From positions 6,934 to 16,885 of the forward strand of contig NZ_RARA01000014.1 of assembly GCF_003788695.1 (NCBI RefSeq): 9,952 bases of DNA. Direction: 5' to 3'. The notes under the pieces were generated by a model, which did not search any database, was not told the DNA's origin, and was given only the letters and a program-made list of their open reading frames with translations. How positions within the stretch are numbered: the first letter of the stretch is position 1; the number at the start of each line of letters is the position of its first letter. The translations under genes were made by a program, and so were the position numbers. Source of the stretch: Candidatus Cardinium hertigii (lineage in GTDB: Bacteria > Bacteroidota > Bacteroidia > Cytophagales_A > Amoebophilaceae). Shown here one piece after another: positions 251-9,952 of this stretch.

Positions 251-279
251 TTTAAAGCTACTTTTTTTGTTTGATCATA
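251..279 (-). repeat. truncated copy of the GATC-loop hairpin module
   Basis: TTTAAAGCTAC, a T-run and GTTTGATCA match the start of the conserved module of copy B (1855 onward). The sequence stops matching after the GATCA loop, so the second stem arm is missing. It sits 5 bp from the MITE-like end at 226-245, an association repeated elsewhere in the window. Confidence 0.6.
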
Positions 280-421: not shown

Positions 422-454
422 TTATAAAAAATGCACCATTATAAAAAATGCGCC
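421..454. repeat. 17-bp direct repeat, two copies
   Basis: ATTATAAAAAATGCACC (421-437) is followed directly by ATTATAAAAAATGCGCC (438-454). The second copy corresponds to the outer border of structured element A. The equivalent border in copy B (ATTATAAAAAACGCGCC, complement of 2044-2060) is present only once, so this looks like a local duplication of the element end. Confidence 0.75.
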
Positions 455-631
455 TTGAAAAAACTGTGGAAAGAAAAGAAAGGAAAAAAATCAAAAGAAA
501 ATCATTTTGTCTGAGCTCCGTAGGAGCGAGATTTGATTTTCGGTTTTTTTCCTTTCTTTTCAGCAGTTTTTTCACCAGCGCTTGATTTTTTTTGGCTACT
601 TTTTTTGATCAAGCAAAAAAAGTAGCTTTAA
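438..631 (+). repeat. structured repeat element, copy A
   Basis: Reading rightward, the element has three parts. First is a border, ATTATAAAAAATGCGCC. Second is a long hairpin (456-574). Its foot is TGAAAAAACTG (456-466) paired with CAGTTTTTTCA (564-574), then a perfect 18-bp purine-rich arm (473-490 with 544-561), then GAAAATCA/TGATTTTC (497-504 with 534-541), and a GCTCC-GTA-GGAGC tip (515-527). Third is a conserved module (575-631) with a 12-bp stem, GCTACTTTTTTT/AAAAAAAGTAGC, closing the loop GATCAAGC. Bases 571-631 are the exact reverse complement of 1855-1915 in copy B. It lies beyond the 3' end of the M23 gene, where it could also act as a transcription stop. No protein is encoded. It may be a small non-autonomous mobile element or a structured RNA; sequence alone does not decide. 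Confidence 0.7.
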
Positions 632-697
632 TTTCTATACCATAATAGAAAGGCTTTGCGGATGAAGAAAGGAAGTTGTTTAATTTTGCTAAAAAGT

Positions 698-1660
698 CTA
701 ATAGCAAAGTGTTTGTGTTTGATTTGCCGCTTGTTTACATACTTCATCATGTTCAGCTGCAGACAATTCTGCTGCAAAATATTGAACTGGATCCACCCGA
801 TTCCTATTTTGGAAGATTTCATAGTGCAGGTGGGGACCTGTTGAAGCACCTGAACTACCCACTGTGCCAATTTGCTGCCCCCTAACTATTTTTTGGCGTT
901 CTTTAACCGTTATGGAATACATATGAGCATAGAGTGTTTGAAATCCATTGCCATGCTCCAGTAGTAGATGATTACCTAGTCCTTTTTTATCATTTTTTAA
1001 CGATTTAACATATCCATCAGCAGCAGCATAAATAGGCGTATACATGGGAGCAGCAAAATCAACTCCTTCATGCATTTTACGTATTTTAAATATTGGATGC
1101 AAACGCATACCAAAAGATCCTGAAATTCTTTTTAAATGCTTTTTAGATAGGGGAGGGAAGGTAGGTTTAGATTTCAATGTACTGACATGTGTTTTAGCCA
1201 CTCCTAATATGTAATCGTAAGATTTTTTTTGAATGTTTAACTTACTAATGAGTTGGTCTACCTTAGACAAGGTTTGGGCAATTAACGTCTCTTTGCCTAA
1301 GTGGGCATATTTATCTACGCCTCCCATACCCGCATCACGTTCTGCAGTGGAAAGCGGATTTCTATTTAATAATACCCTGAGCGTATCTTCGCGTTCTTGT
1401 AACGCATTCAATATTTTTGTGCTGCTTTCTATTCTTCTTTGTATATCAATATAATAAGTTTTTAATTTTGTATTGTCCGCTAGTAGTTCAGCTTCTTTAG
1501 GAGAGACAAAATGACCTTTATAGTACCTGACTATGGCACTAGCTAGCACAAGCGATAAAGCTATAAAGCCACATCCACGTAAGATACATGCTAATATAGA
1601 TGTTTTTATGCTCTCATAGCTACAAGTAGCAGGGTTATAGTAGTACTTAGCCTTTCGCAT
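698..1660 (-). CDS. M23-family zinc metallopeptidase, membrane-anchored (murein endopeptidase-like)
   Basis: This 320-residue protein has a short cytosolic head, MRKAKYYYNPATCSYE, which resembles the start of many Bacteroidota M23 proteins. One membrane segment follows (about 23-46), then a helical, probably coiled-coil region (about 53-165) and a C-terminal LytM/M23 domain (about 175-297). The zinc and catalytic residues expected from LytM are visible: H197 and D201 in HEGVD, H246 in YAH, H277 and H279 in HLHYE. Such enzymes cleave peptide cross-links of peptidoglycan from the periplasmic side. Retaining an intact enzyme suggests some remaining murein or cell-division role in a reduced symbiont; that is inference. 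The ATG at 1658-1660 directly begins the conserved head. The last 23 residues are a non-conserved tail with two cysteines. The gene stands alone, between inverted structured repeats, with its own promoter. Substrate specificity cannot be read from sequence, and loss of activity is not indicated. Confidence 0.9.
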   Translation of the reverse strand: MRKAKYYYNPATCSYESIKTSILACILRGCGFIALSLVLASAIVRYYKGHFVSPKEAELLADNTKLKTYYIDIQRRIESSTKILNALQEREDTLRVLLNRNPLSTAERDAGMGGVDKYAHLGKETLIAQTLSKVDQLISKLNIQKKSYDYILGVAKTHVSTLKSKPTFPPLSKKHLKRISGSFGMRLHPIFKIRKMHEGVDFAAPMYTPIYAAADGYVKSLKNDKKGLGNHLLLEHGNGFQTLYAHMYSITVKERQKIVRGQQIGTVGSSGASTGPHLHYEIFQNRNRVDPVQYFAAELSAAEHDEVCKQAANQTQTLCY

Positions 1661-1685
1661 AAAATGTATATAATCATATATATAA

Positions 1686-1709
1686 AATAGGGACCTATAG
1701 GTCCCTATT
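1686..1709. promoter_or_regulatory. perfect 24-bp palindrome at the M23 gene start region
   Basis: AATAGGGACCTA and its exact complement TAGGTCCCTATT adjoin without a spacer, 25 bp before the M23 ATG. The palindrome directly abuts the -7 box at 1710-1717, so transcription would start inside or beside it. It could be a repressor operator overlapping the start site, or a stem at the 5' end of the mRNA. Read leftward it is followed by TTATATATATG, which is only a weak T-tract, so a terminator is a less likely alternative. Confidence 0.6.
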
Positions 1710-1740
1710 CAAATCTACTAATTTTAGGCTTAATAGGCAA
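1710..1740 (-). promoter_or_regulatory. Bacteroidota-type promoter for the M23 gene
   Basis: On the minus strand TTG (1738-1740), a 20-nt gap and TAGATTTG (1710-1717) match the -33 TTG / -7 TAnnTTTG architecture known for the Bacteroidota primary sigma factor. The ATG follows about 50 nt downstream. This is the best promoter match in the window. Confidence 0.5.
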
Positions 1741-1776
1741 CTGTTATATCAAAAATTGTGGCTTATTCAGAAAATA

Positions 1777-1840
1777 TGTGTCCGTTTACTTGCGTGGTAG
1801 CCATATTTTATAGATTATTGATGATTTTATCCATTTTTTA
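1777..1840 (+). repeat. left half of the MITE-like element
   Basis: From TGTCCGTTTACTTGCGTGG through the CATATTTTATAGATTATTG block to GATTTTATC this matches the left half of the complete copy at 8427-8543 with few differences. It then departs from it, and the conserved module of copy B starts about 15 bp further on. The right half is absent, so this is a truncated or interrupted copy. Confidence 0.75.
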
Positions 1841-1854
1841 AAAAACTGTTTATT

Positions 1855-2060
1855 TTAAAGCTACTTTTTTTGCTTGATCAAAAAAAGTAGCCAAAAAAAA
1901 TCAAGCGCTGGTGAACAAAGCTGTTAAAAATTCAGTCTGAAAGCTGAAAATCAGAACTCGCCCAGGCCTGTAGCCTAGGGCTCAAACAGGCTGATTTTCT
2001 ACTACCTTTCAGACTGAATTTTTCTAATCACAGCTTTGTTCAAGGCGCGTTTTTTATAAT
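1855..2060 (-). repeat. structured repeat element, copy B (inverted relative to A)
   Basis: Read on the minus strand it has the same order as copy A: border ATTATAAAAAACGCGCC, long hairpin (2042-1912), conserved GATC-loop module (1915-1855). The foot is TGAACAAAGCTGT (1912-1924) paired with ACAGCTTTGTTCA (2030-2042). A perfect 18-bp arm follows (1926-1943 with 2006-2023), whose sequence is unrelated to the arm in A, then the shared GAAAATCAG/CTGATTTTC pair (1946-1954 with 1991-1999) and a GC-rich tip (1960-1981). The 61 bases 1855-1915 are identical, in reverse complement, to 571-631. It lies beyond the 3' end of dnaK and may stop its transcripts. No protein is encoded. Confidence 0.7.
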
Positions 2061-2091
2061 CTTGCAATAATGCAAGCCATACAAAACGCGC
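2045..2091 (-). terminator. stem-loop downstream of dnaK (possible terminator)
   Basis: GCGCGTTTT (2045-2053) pairs with AAAACGCGC (2083-2091). Inside it sits a second small hairpin, CTTGCA-ATAA-TGCAAG (2061-2076). It starts 38 bp past the dnaK stop. There is no clear U-tract after it on the minus strand, so terminator function is uncertain. It overlaps the outer border of structured element B. Confidence 0.4.
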
Positions 2092-2128
2092 ATGTGAGCA
2101 AATACCTCTTAACGGGTAACATGGGAAG

Positions 2129-4314: not shown

Positions 4315-4323
4315 AAAATATTG

Positions 4324-4516
4324 TATCCTTCACTTGCGTGGCAGAAATGTTTTTAAATTAATTATTTAATTACTAAATTATTCGTTACTTTTTTTGATCA
4401 AGCAAAAAAAGTAGCTTTAAAAGAAGTAGTTTTAAAAAAATGGACATCAATTATTAATTATTAGCCATTTTCTGTAATCTATATAAAATATGGCTGCCAT
4501 GCAGGTGAACAGACAC
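4324..4516. repeat. MITE-like element interrupted by a GATC-loop hairpin
   Basis: The left end, CTTCACTTGCGTGGCAG (4327-4343), and the right half, ATCAATTATTAATTATTAGC through TATGGCTGCCATGCAGGTGAACAG (4446-4514), match the complete copy at 8427-8543. Between them lie about 100 bp of unrelated A/T-rich sequence containing a conserved GATC-loop hairpin (4384-4420: GTTACTTTTTTT, loop GATCAAGC, AAAAAAAGTAGC). One mismatch weakens the hairpin stem. The arrangement suggests that the hairpin module went into, or replaced the centre of, a MITE copy. It lies about 80 bp past the ferritin stop. Confidence 0.6.
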
Positions 4517-5355: not shown

Positions 5356-5389
5356 TTGCATTTAATTTTATAAAAGTAATGTATTTTTG
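5356..5389 (+). promoter_or_regulatory. candidate promoter of the translocase gene
   Basis: TTG (5356-5358), a 23-nt gap and TATTTTTG (5382-5389) fit the -33/-7 pattern at the long limit of the spacing. If it is used, transcription would begin around 5395 and leave about a 10-nt leader before the ATG at 5405. That would exclude the TTG at 5387 as the start codon. Confidence 0.3.
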
Positions 5390-5404
5390 GCCTATTTACC
5401 ACTT

Positions 5405-6880
5405 ATGACACAGTACTTTTTTTTATCGTATCTTAAAAGGTGGTTACAATTTATTTTTCCCATAAAAAAAACTGAAAGAAAAAAAGTTGTATTGTTATTG
5501 TTTTTAAAATTTCTTATTTCTTTTGTTTACTGCATTCTCACCGCGCTAAAAGATACTGCACTTATTACAGCCAGTCATTCTGCTGCTGAAGTGATTCCCA
5601 TTGTGAAAGGTTCTATTATTTTTCCTATTTCCATAGGAGCGCTCGTATTATATACCAAGTTAAACAATCACTACAAGCAATCTACCATCTTTTATGGTAC
5701 CGTCCTATTTTTTTTAGCCTTGATCCTTTTATATGGATTTGTTTTATATCCCAATGCAAACAAGGTAAGCCCCCATACTATAGCGGATGCATTGAGTATA
5801 TATACAGCTGGTAAACACCTCCATTGGATTGCTGTATTTCGCCATTGGATTCATGTATTATTTTTTGTGGTTGCAGAACTTTGGGGGCAAATAGCCCTGA
5901 CGGTGCTCTATTGGAGTTTTGTAAATAGTGTATGTACTATACAAGATGCCAAACGATTTTATGCCCTACTAATCGCTGCCGGAGATGTGGCACTGATTAG
6001 TACAGCTCCATTGATTATAGCTTATACTCAAAAATATAGCCATATTGATTTTTTATGTACTGTGCAAGTATTAATCGGATATGTTACTTTTTTTTGTTTA
6101 ATAATCATATTTATATACTACTTGGCCAATCGCAGTATAAAACGAGATATTCCCGTTGGACTAGGTAAAACGTCTACAAAACTTCAGTTATCGCTTTGGG
6201 ATAGCCTAAAGCATGTTGCCTCTTCTCGATATTTAGTAGGCGTAGCTATTATGGTGGTTTCCTGTGGGCTTTCTATTAATATTGTGGAAGGCATTTGGAA
6301 ATCTTATCTCAAAGAACTATTTCCAAAAGCCGCAGATTATCAAAGTTTCGTATCAGAATGTACTTTCTGGACAGGCATTATTGCCCTAATCTTCTCTCTC
6401 TTTTTTAGTGGGGGTATGTTGCGCAAATTTGGCTGGAAAGCAACTGCACGTGTGACGCCAGTAGTGGTTGGGGTGATGGGGCAGCTCTTTTTTTTAATGA
6501 GTTACATTAAAAATAATGTATTGTATTTAACAAATTGGCTAGAACCTAAATTGATCCTATACATTGCCATTTTTGGCGGTATCCAAAATGTAATAGCTAA
6601 AGCTGTAAAATATGCTTTTTTTGATAAAACAGCCCAAATGGCTTACATACCATTGGATCCAGAAACTAAAATTAAAGGGAAAGCTGCTGTAGATTTGCTA
6701 GGCTCTCGTTTGGGAAAAGCAGGCTCCTCCTGGATTCAAATTGCATTGCTAGAAATTTTTCATACCAATAGTATCCAGCCCCTTTCAGGGGTATTGTTTA
6801 TATTTTTACTAATAACCACTATTTGTTGGTATCAATCTATCGATTATGTCGATAAGAAGCTTACATTACTTGAAGTATAA
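5405..6880 (+). CDS. Tlc-family nucleotide (ATP/ADP-type) translocase
   Basis: An inner-membrane carrier of about 491 residues, the usual length for this family of 11-12 membrane helices. Members exchange host ATP for ADP or import nucleotides into intracellular bacteria (Rickettsia, Chlamydiae, Amoebophilus, Cardinium) and plastids. Family landmarks, numbered from a TTG at 5387, are LKDT (54-57), ELWGQ (164-168), QDAKRFY (186-192), EGIWKSYLKELFP (301-313), KYAFFDKTAQMAYIPLD (408-424) and KGKAAVDLLGSRLGKAG (430-446). The charged residues thought essential in plant AATP1 have likely counterparts K55, E164, E301 and K430/K432. I prefer the ATG at 5405, because it leaves a family-typical leader before FPIKKTERKK and avoids overlap with the candidate promoter. 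The TTG at 5387 would add six residues. Whether it is a strict ATP/ADP exchanger or a broader nucleotide importer cannot be told, because paralogues differ in substrate. Confidence 0.95.
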   Translation: MTQYFFLSYLKRWLQFIFPIKKTERKKVVLLLFLKFLISFVYCILTALKDTALITASHSAAEVIPIVKGSIIFPISIGALVLYTKLNNHYKQSTIFYGTVLFFLALILLYGFVLYPNANKVSPHTIADALSIYTAGKHLHWIAVFRHWIHVLFFVVAELWGQIALTVLYWSFVNSVCTIQDAKRFYALLIAAGDVALISTAPLIIAYTQKYSHIDFLCTVQVLIGYVTFFCLIIIFIYYLANRSIKRDIPVGLGKTSTKLQLSLWDSLKHVASSRYLVGVAIMVVSCGLSINIVEGIWKSYLKELFPKAADYQSFVSECTFWTGIIALIFSLFFSGGMLRKFGWKATARVTPVVVGVMGQLFFLMSYIKNNVLYLTNWLEPKLILYIAIFGGIQNVIAKAVKYAFFDKTAQMAYIPLDPETKIKGKAAVDLLGSRLGKAGSSWIQIALLEIFHTNSIQPLSGVLFIFLLITTICWYQSIDYVDKKLTLLEV

Positions 6881-8418: not shown

Positions 8419-8426
8419 TATTAAGG

Positions 8427-8543
8427 TGTTCGCTCACCTGCGTGGCAGCCATATTTTATAGATTATTGGTGATTTTATCAATTATTAATTATTAGCCATT
8501 TGCTGTAATCTATACAATATGGCTGCCACGCAAGTGAACAGAT
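8427..8543. repeat. complete MITE-like palindromic element between tsf and the flippase gene
   Basis: The outer arms are inverted repeats of about 38 bp. The left arm runs from GTTCGCTCACCTGCGTGGC to the CATATTTTATAGATTA block; the right arm is the complement of TAATCTATACAATATGGC followed by TGCCACGCAAGTGAAC. A middle of about 40 bp is A/T-rich (ATCAATTATTAATTATTAGC). Parts of the same sequence occur at 196-245, 1777-1840 and 4324-4516. No transposase is encoded and no clear target-site duplication is seen at the edges. In RNA it would form a long hairpin between tsf and the flippase gene, which may attenuate transcription or shape processing. Confidence 0.75.
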
Positions 8544-8559
8544 ACTGCAAGAGTAGCTA

Positions 8560-9474: not shown

Positions 9475-9952
9475 CTACGATTCTGTTTTGGGGGGCTGAT
9501 CTGTAGGAGGCATAGATGCGTCTTGCCCAGGATCAGCTATTGCAGGGGCTGCAACCGTAATAGGCGTAATGGATACGGCGTGTTCCTTTGTTGGGGGCTG
9601 ATCTGTAAGAGGCATAGATGCGTCCTGTCTAGGATCAGCTATTGCAGGGGATGTAGCCGTAATAGGCGTAGTGGATACGGCTTGTTCCTTTGTTACAGAG
9701 CTCGCAACTTTAGTTTTGGGAGAGGGGGTGCTTTGTTTCATTACTACACCTTGAATTACTTTTATGCCTCTTTTAGGCGTAATTTTAGTTCCTGTGCTAC
9801 TCAACTGTTCTTCCTCTTTAGGCACAGTTTCTACTTTATCTTTTTTGTATGACTCTATCCCTTCTCTAATGGCATCAGCCACGTAACGAACTACAATATC
9901 AACAGAACGAAATGCGTCATCATTACCAGGAATAGGAAAATCAACCGCATCT
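9475..9952 (-). CDS. rpsB: 30S ribosomal protein S2, C-terminal part (partial) with extended repeat tail
   Basis: The visible 158 residues begin inside the conserved S2 core. DAVDFPIPGNDDAFRSVD and VADAIREGIESYKKDK correspond to the VDxxIPGNDDA...REG end of bacterial S2, and tsf lies directly downstream, as expected. The reading frame enters from the right edge; the GTG at 9880-9882 is an internal valine, not a start. After the core, where E. coli S2 soon ends, about 118 more residues follow. This tail is rich in P, T, A, K and E, probably disordered, and contains two 34-residue tandem repeats (PTKEQAVSTTPIT-type, then AIADPxQDASMPxTDQPP). Bacteroidota S2 proteins often have modest C-terminal extensions, but this one is long. 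S2 binds the 16S rRNA near the neck of the 30S subunit; the tail's role is unknown. Confidence 0.95.
   Translation of the reverse strand, partial: DAVDFPIPGNDDAFRSVDIVVRYVADAIREGIESYKKDKVETVPKEEEQLSSTGTKITPKRGIKVIQGVVMKQSTPSPKTKVASSVTKEQAVSTTPITATSPAIADPRQDASMPLTDQPPTKEHAVSITPITVAAPAIADPGQDASMPPTDQPPKTES
9491..9694 (-). repeat. two 102-bp tandem repeats within rpsB
   Basis: Unit 1 (9491-9592) and unit 2 (9593-9694) both start GGGGGCTGATCTGTARGAGG on the plus strand and match at most positions. The period of 102 bp is exactly 34 codons, so copy-number change keeps the frame. Several differences change amino acids (Q/H, T/I, T/V, R/G, L/P), so the protein sequence is not strictly constrained. 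Confidence 0.85.

Follow-up and report, generated by a model that had tools for sequence, protein, structure and literature searches.

Paired hairpin copies in Candidatus Cardinium hertigii as probable members of a family of miniature inverted-repeat transposable elements

Two copies of a hairpin element lie in opposite orientation within a 9,952-base stretch of Candidatus Cardinium hertigii DNA (contig NZ_RARA01000014.1; 36% G+C, with Cardinium-like genes; hereafter the window), and their stems raise a question: what kind of element carries 18-bp arms that are unrelated in sequence between the copies, yet pair perfectly within each copy? The answer that we favour, and consider rather probable, is that these copies, A and B, belong to a miniature inverted-repeat transposable element (MITE) with IS256-like ends and 8-bp target duplications, in which the structured core is cargo. 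MITEs are a known kind of element; the cargo, its spread in Bacteroidota and the traces of arm rewriting were not found described in Rfam or in the literature searched.

The relation between the copies is evident from self-comparison. Positions 567-631 and 1855-1919 are 98% complementary over 65 nt, and the 5' borders also match (32 nt, 88%), so that A (438-631, plus strand) and B (1855-2060, minus strand) are real inverted copies. The longest perfect Watson-Crick helix of each hairpin is its 18-bp arm (473-490/544-561 in A; 1926-1943/2006-2023 in B), and the inner pair GAAAATCA/TGATTTTC is common to both. When the copies are aligned by structure, 24 of the 39 pairs are identical, 11 are changed on both sides and yet paired in both, and 4 are of other kinds. 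RNA folding of 438-631 gives -76.4 kcal/mol. The original prediction, made from the sequence, had described an inverted pair with a common border, foot, inner pair and 3' module and with unrelated arms that each pair with themselves, and all of this is borne out. The shared 3' block is likewise present, at 65 bp rather than 61, and the cores were placed correctly, although the elements reach beyond them. The features of the two copies are the following.

438-631, plus strand: copy A, structured core and 3' module (self-comparison and fold)
449-584, plus strand: main hairpin of A, with closing GCGC, foot at about 456-467/563-574, arm, inner stem and tip (RNA fold and alignment row)
473-490, plus strand: 5' arm of A, GAAAAGAAAGGAAAAAAA (perfect 18-bp helix)
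544-561, plus strand: 3' arm of A (perfect 18-bp helix)
508-532, plus strand: tip of A, TGTCTGAG-stem-CGAGAT
567-631, plus strand: 3' module of A, a T-tract and then the hairpin GCTACTTTTTTTGATCAAGCAAAAAAAGTAGC (98% complementary to 1855-1919)
1778-2105, minus strand: unit with copy B, 328 bp, inverted ends GTGTCCGTTTACTTGCGTGG (1778, plus strand) and GTATTTGCTCACATGCGCG (2105, minus strand)
1902-2049, minus strand: main hairpin of B (fold and alignment)
2006-2023, minus strand: 5' arm of B, AAAAATTCAGTCTGAAAG (perfect 18-bp helix)
1926-1943, minus strand: 3' arm of B (perfect 18-bp helix)
1955-1990, minus strand: tip of B, TGTTTGAG-stem-CGAGTT
1855-1919, minus strand: 3' module of B (complementary to the module of A)

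By eye, copy A shows no 3' unit end and, near 372, at best a decayed 5' one.

The evidence for mobility comes from relatives. With the module (567-631) as query, 7 of the 21 TP-group genomes gave matches at E <= 0.001: at least 40 places in Candidatus Cardinium sp. TP (G001, hereafter TP), at least 43 each in G012 and G014 (these three counts from the best 40 of 80-110 candidates scored), 10 in G013, 4 in G010, 3 in G016 and 2 in G009. Many copies follow a common plan of border, foot with a 5' bulge, arm, inner GAAAAACAG/CTGTTTTTC, tip hairpin, foot, CTTGATTTTTTG and second hairpin, and some copies in relatives are truncated upstream. The left boundary of homology among the TP copies is GTATSTGTTCA...TGGTT and the right one AACCAGTATCGTGAACAGATAC, giving units of about 257 bp with imperfect inverted ends of about 20-22 bp; GTA starts 21 of the 24 TP units counted (23 distinct) and, on the opposite strand, begins 19 of the 24. 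Duplications of 8 bp (at least 7 of 8 matching) flank 6 of 23 units in TP, where shuffled flanks give 0.33, while lengths 3 to 7 gave counts of 6, 2, 1, 2 and 2 against 4.8, 1.5, 1.0, 0.5 and 0.2, and lengths 9 to 11 counts of 1, 0 and 0 against 0.2, 0 and 0. Of 35 rows in G012 and G014, 16 have ends that could be located, and 4 of these show 8-9-bp duplications (0.24 expected); a further one is visible by eye at locus L150, where the script had picked another end. Given inverted ends and target duplications, the core transposes as a unit. The hallmarks of a MITE, namely terminal inverted repeats, target duplication and short, many-copy units without a transposase, are thus all seen in relatives, and we infer that the window copies belong to this kind too. 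Reading the core as a stand-alone element is not supported by this comparison, the core in TP sitting within a MITE with inverted ends and 8-bp duplications.

From the likeness of the ends, we infer that the parent was probably an IS256-type transposon. One such transposon (PF00872) in genome G003 has the ends GGGTCTATTCA..GAACTGTGTCA, or over 24 bp GGGTCTATTCAACGAACTGTGTCA / GGGTCTATTCATTGAACTGTGTCA, and an 8-bp duplication, ATAGCTTA; the MITE ends are alike in pattern and not identical. An IS256-family transposase would mobilise the MITE in trans, and the MITE would have multiplied in Cardinium-like bacteria, carrying as cargo a long hairpin between an A-tract and a T-tract and then a second A/T-rich hairpin.

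How pairing is maintained was examined on aligned copies. Of 95 raw copies, 80 passed the limits on length (120-150) and fold energy (<= -40), 79 remained without near-duplicates and 78 were aligned (L003 being left out), eight TP rows having been lengthened by 16 nt at the 5' end beforehand. Over 36 pairs, 94.7% of cells are paired against 89.8% in shuffles of the same rows, a percentage inflated by the fold-energy filter, which favours paired rows. Cells changed on both sides number 143 against 37.3, with 0 of 500 shuffles as high; with the partner slid by 1-3 columns, 45-56% of cells are paired and 23-39 are changed on both sides. The counts for single genomes shift one gap column, which puts the TP and G012 arms in register; the 78-copy count uses the unshifted alignment without those columns. 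In arms and inner stem, both-side cells number 50 against 13.8 in G012 (17 against 4.2 in its type-1 copies, 4 against 1.0 in its type-2 copies) and 21 against 8.4 in G014; the 39 TP copies give 9 against 9.7, that is, no covariation. The foot gives 44 against 15.5 over all copies, 4 against 1.5 in G014 and 4 against 2.9 in TP.

Within TP, 21 pairs of arms and foot are changed on both sides (16.8 if the sides were independent), and 10 of the 21 still pair; 166 are changed on one side. Divergence from the TP consensus is 0.084/0.057 in the arms, 0.064/0.128 in the foot, 0.094/0.113 in the bulges and 0.089 in the tip. Since TP lacks covariation, its copies are not individually bound to pair: they drift, with little sign of pairing constraint, and it is the lineages that differ by compensated arms. 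Old copies, in other words, drift, and pairing is renewed between lineages. Covariation across copies therefore holds for the family at large and is absent among the TP copies. Arms that do not pair, which had been named as a sign against the element, were looked for: many single pairs are unpaired in TP copies, and the family still pairs.

Some copies record how an arm may be renewed. The 5' bulge (in G012 copies, CGATCAG against CAG) gives way in L082 and L153, and in L008 of TP, to uninterrupted helices of 35, 30 and 23 bp. In each, the reverse complement of the copy's own bulge is present on the 3' strand, the TAATC, TGATC and TAAAC versions each matching their own 5' arm. Perfect helices also occur in L006 (24 bp) and L151 (28 bp), and the interior of L150 is inverted, being identical to the reverse complement of L152 at 50 of 54 positions and to its forward strand at 39 of 64. 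Tract replacement and tip inversion are the mark of template switching, in few copies, and an inversion like that of L150 together with tract events is what template switching predicts according to the accessible part of a published account (PMC8794818). A polymerase would switch templates across the hairpin and re-copy one arm from the other; the well-paired source copies would be those that spread, and dead copies would drift. The two causes offered earlier for the paired arms, selected pairing or hairpin-templated repair, both find evidence here, in lineage-level pairing and in the few rewritten copies respectively, but not copy by copy in TP.

The cargo may also have a function in its own right. 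An A-run (>=4) upstream and a T-run (>=5) downstream of the closing stem are present in 38 of 39 TP copies, 20 of 24 in G012, 9 of 10 in G014 (one further row, which has no flank, being left out) and both window copies. By simple open reading frame (ORF) calling, 29 of 30 TP loci lie in 12 convergent, 14 tandem, 2 divergent and 1 undetermined neighbourhoods; the 53 copies in other genomes (one locus counted twice) lie in 14 convergent, 14 tandem, 5 divergent and 20 undetermined ones, both sets being counted without a genome-wide baseline. The order of A-tract, stem and T-tract and these neighbourhoods suggest a bidirectional terminator, or merely the avoidance of promoters. In RNA, the hairpin would act as a terminator in both directions and let insertions survive at the 3' ends of genes.

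The module is not confined to Cardinium. Of 198 genomes of the class, 19 carry its pattern, and in a phylum sample of 296 genomes 6 carry a stricter one (TP included in both); neither control (reversed for the class) gave a match. The 18 other class genomes are of 2.5-5.1 Mb and presumably free-living, and an upstream hairpin is predicted in 12 of 12 inspected (folds without a shuffled control; that of L232 in G078 is poor). Among G078-type copies (13 distinct rows of the 15 passing the motif filter, L191 and L230 being the same and counted once), 98% of cells are paired against 85% in shuffles, with 68 both-side cells against 19 (0 of 300 shuffles as high), and 23 rows of G114-type copies give 18 against 5; structures were predicted from the same alignments, so these results lean toward pairing. 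The tip motif is found in both window copies, 4 of 24 copies in G012, 2 of 11 in G014, 0 of 39 in TP and 0 of 2 other aligned rows, and beyond these in 6 of 10 copies of G078, 2 of 3 of G115 and 2 of 2 of G034. It is absent from all 34 copies of G114, G178, G216, G167, G197 and G158, where kinship is thus argued from the module and its position.

Five plasmid records match, of which four were read. Plasmids of Aureibacter tunicatorum and Ilyobacter polytropus (Fusobacteriota) have hairpin, tip motif and module, and two records of Persicobacter sp. JZB09 have another hairpin instead. On A. tunicatorum pAT6 (2501-2541) hairpin and module lie inside a type I-D CRISPR operon, between its cas7d and cas5d genes, and the single copy on I. 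polytropus pILYOP01 (2001-2042), with the tip TGTTTGAGCAAAGCGAGTT, suggests transfer between phyla. Neither copy A nor a G078-type copy used as query matched a plasmid. In viral contigs the exact 32-base module has no match, and a looser pattern has two, both with an upstream hairpin. In genome G216 the core lies in units with the ends TAGGTTTARTCATYT, with duplications matching at 8 of 8 positions in 3 of 5 units (284-304 bp, by script); a fourth unit, L242, and a further locus, L290, have them by eye, and L244 has none. The core is therefore borne by units with differing ends. The G216 end pattern at three mismatches gave 18 loci against 15 in the control; at 3 of the 8 examined the ends are paired and enclose no ORF of 130 codons. 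A longer conserved repeat of about 450-486 bp finishes near the module at L276-L278 (G167, G197). It is a tentative and somewhat doubtful extension of these data that the structured element is a Bacteroidota-wide mobile two-way terminator, used by MITEs with differing ends and with its stem rewritten by template switching.

Several observations weigh against the MITE reading and the parent, terminator and arm rewriting attached to it. Duplications are lacking at 17 of 23 TP units, and the window units 1778-2105, 4323-4516 and 8426-8545 (the last two described below) have ends and no recognisable target duplication, the first as judged by eye. No transposase ORF was recognised between paired ends in 20 TP stretches (ORFs judged by eye), the IS256 loci of TP (one), G009 (four) and G010 (one) lack the GTATCTGTTCA ends, and none of seven transposase loci inspected is a parent with such ends, that of G003 having related ones; the IS256 search took in 19 genomes, G012 not among them, and gave no match in G014. 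The case for a terminator is made from anatomy and ORF neighbourhood, and rarity between divergent genes may mirror harm to promoters; a terminator consensus scan of 300-2200 found 3 sites against 1.3 +/- 1.3 in shuffles, not clearly above them and so of no added support. Tract events were seen in six copies only (of the 78 aligned plus L006), so that template switching is seen to occur without thereby accounting for all the compensated changes. Covariation is lacking in the G012 foot (1 against 0.8), and the TP inner stem is the least divergent part (0.028 and 0.034), which makes it a part of the hairpin kept by sequence and not by pairing. Neighbouring ORFs at 12 module loci of other genomes are not transposase-like by eye.

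There is some reason to think of the core as a stand-alone functional RNA, or a DNA hairpin substrate, selected at each locus, with the inverted ends incidental: covariation across lineages is strong, also in the G078-type copies, and the tip motif of the window copies recurs in some G012, G014 and G078-type copies and in Aureibacter and Ilyobacter. Against it, covariation is absent among the 39 TP copies, and their arm divergence is near that of bulges and tip; the ends and duplications show transposition as a unit, and Rfam offers no match (none at gathering in the window; nine at E<=1 in nine sources, all below gathering). We consider this account distinctly unlikely. Mutation alone, with quasipalindrome correction by template switching keeping the arms of a functionless and unselected hairpin paired, would explain the tract replacements that remove the bulge in L082, L153 and L008, the helices of L006 and L151 and the inversion of L150, and template switching has been described for RNA hairpins in the accessible part of PMC8794818. 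It does not explain why module and A/T tracts are kept across genera, and correction is slight among TP copies, so that we judge it unlikely as a full account.

An element of the repetitive extragenic palindromic (REP) kind, moved through its hairpin by a Y1 transposase (REP-associated tyrosine transposase, RAYT), would fit the hairpin anatomy, and Y1 transposases occur in 9 of 12 genomes searched; Y1 was not matched in TP, G012 or G014. A Y1 or RAYT partner was rejected on the finding that the module (<=6 edits) is at none of 26 Y1 loci, searched for about 1.5 kb on each side where the contig allows. To our knowledge Y1 transposition is not expected to leave target duplications, which also counts against this explanation, and we regard it as very improbable. 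The MITE with IS256-like ends thus remains the reading that we prefer.

The window holds further traces of the family, found by self-comparison, and some features of other kinds.

4323-4516, plus strand: related unit with inverted ends and module hairpin (4388-4419), without the large hairpin
8426-8545, strand not assigned: related 120-bp unit with inverted ends only
252-277, minus strand: remnant of a 3' module

The first two are probably deletion derivatives. The 8426-8545 unit has a sub-threshold match to a plant microRNA model. At 181-215, and at several TP loci, the family has as its neighbour a further repeat, perhaps of a second MITE family, whose ends resemble GTATCYGTTCA..CAATGGCGTCAACTTAAGG. 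The ORF at 5387-6880 is 72% identical to an ORF of TP, the sole relative among the 40 pattern matches of the scan. At 9481-9684 a 102-bp tandem duplication (87% identical, 34 codons) lies in the tail of a minus-strand ORF, which we take to be ribosomal protein S2 from its position beside an EF-Ts-like ORF.

If the MITE reading is true, the structural cargo of a transposon may lessen the harm of insertion, and one plan has persisted, with changing letters, in several Bacteroidota and a Fusobacteriota plasmid. Dozens of copies per genome are also material for asking whether compensated stems arise by selection or by one-step template switching. They carry a warning as well: when a mobile repeat covaries between lineages, it does not follow that every copy functions as an RNA.

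IS982 ends begin with ACC, and the IS982 locus of G012 (L199) has no GTATCTGTTCA within one mismatch. The nearest known elements by host are MITECca01/02 of Cardinium cOegib, which, in the part of the report available (PMC9769881), are described as derived from IS982 (ISCca4), have AGMTTGTW beside the left end and were not found in other strains. They too are MITEs of about 240 bp, with many mostly intergenic copies in a Cardinium genome, and differ from the present family in its IS256-like ends and its several genomes. None of the 24 TP units (23 distinct) has AGMTTGTW within 60 nt of an end, nor does the window B unit contain it; this absence and the published description set the family apart from MITECca01. 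The suggestion of an undescribed family accordingly stands for the core, which has no Rfam match or description in the literature searched, but not for MITEs of Cardinium as such, which were already known. Five letter strings of the module occur in no paper searched, a literature with most subscription journals outside it; in the accessible parts, neither 'MITE' nor 'IS256' occurs in a paper on Amoebophilus insertion sequences (PMC3196728), and neither 'miniature inverted' nor 'inverted repeat' in a Cardinium review (PMC12342168).

With the IS256 family the present element shares the 8-bp target duplication, and the end pattern G..TCTRTTCA....ACTG of the G003 copy resembles its own; it differs in lacking a transposase, and the exact parent was not found. 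The remaining comparisons draw on the available portions of the papers cited. REPs with RAYT are palindromic and dispersed, and a CGTC class is noted in Bacteroidetes (PMC3733652), but REPs are of 20-40 bp, and here no Y1 gene stands beside the module. Rickettsia palindromic elements, BOX, SPRITE and the QMITE2 of Coxiella are likewise small dispersed repeats whose transcripts would form stable stem-loops, terminator-like sequences being noted for SPRITE (PMC10969869); compared by description only, they differ from the covarying arms and T-tract module found here. Also by description only, the MITE with a minisatellite in Porphyromonas gingivalis is alike as a MITE in Bacteroidota (PMC4596501), and the hairpin-forming repeats of sponge mitochondria are alike as repetitive hairpins said to have invaded genomes, albeit of another kind (PMC2800124). 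Closest in the behaviour of the stem are hairpins made by template switching, which show the same multi-base compensatory change and loop inversion, there in ribosomal RNA and microRNA genes (PMC8794818).

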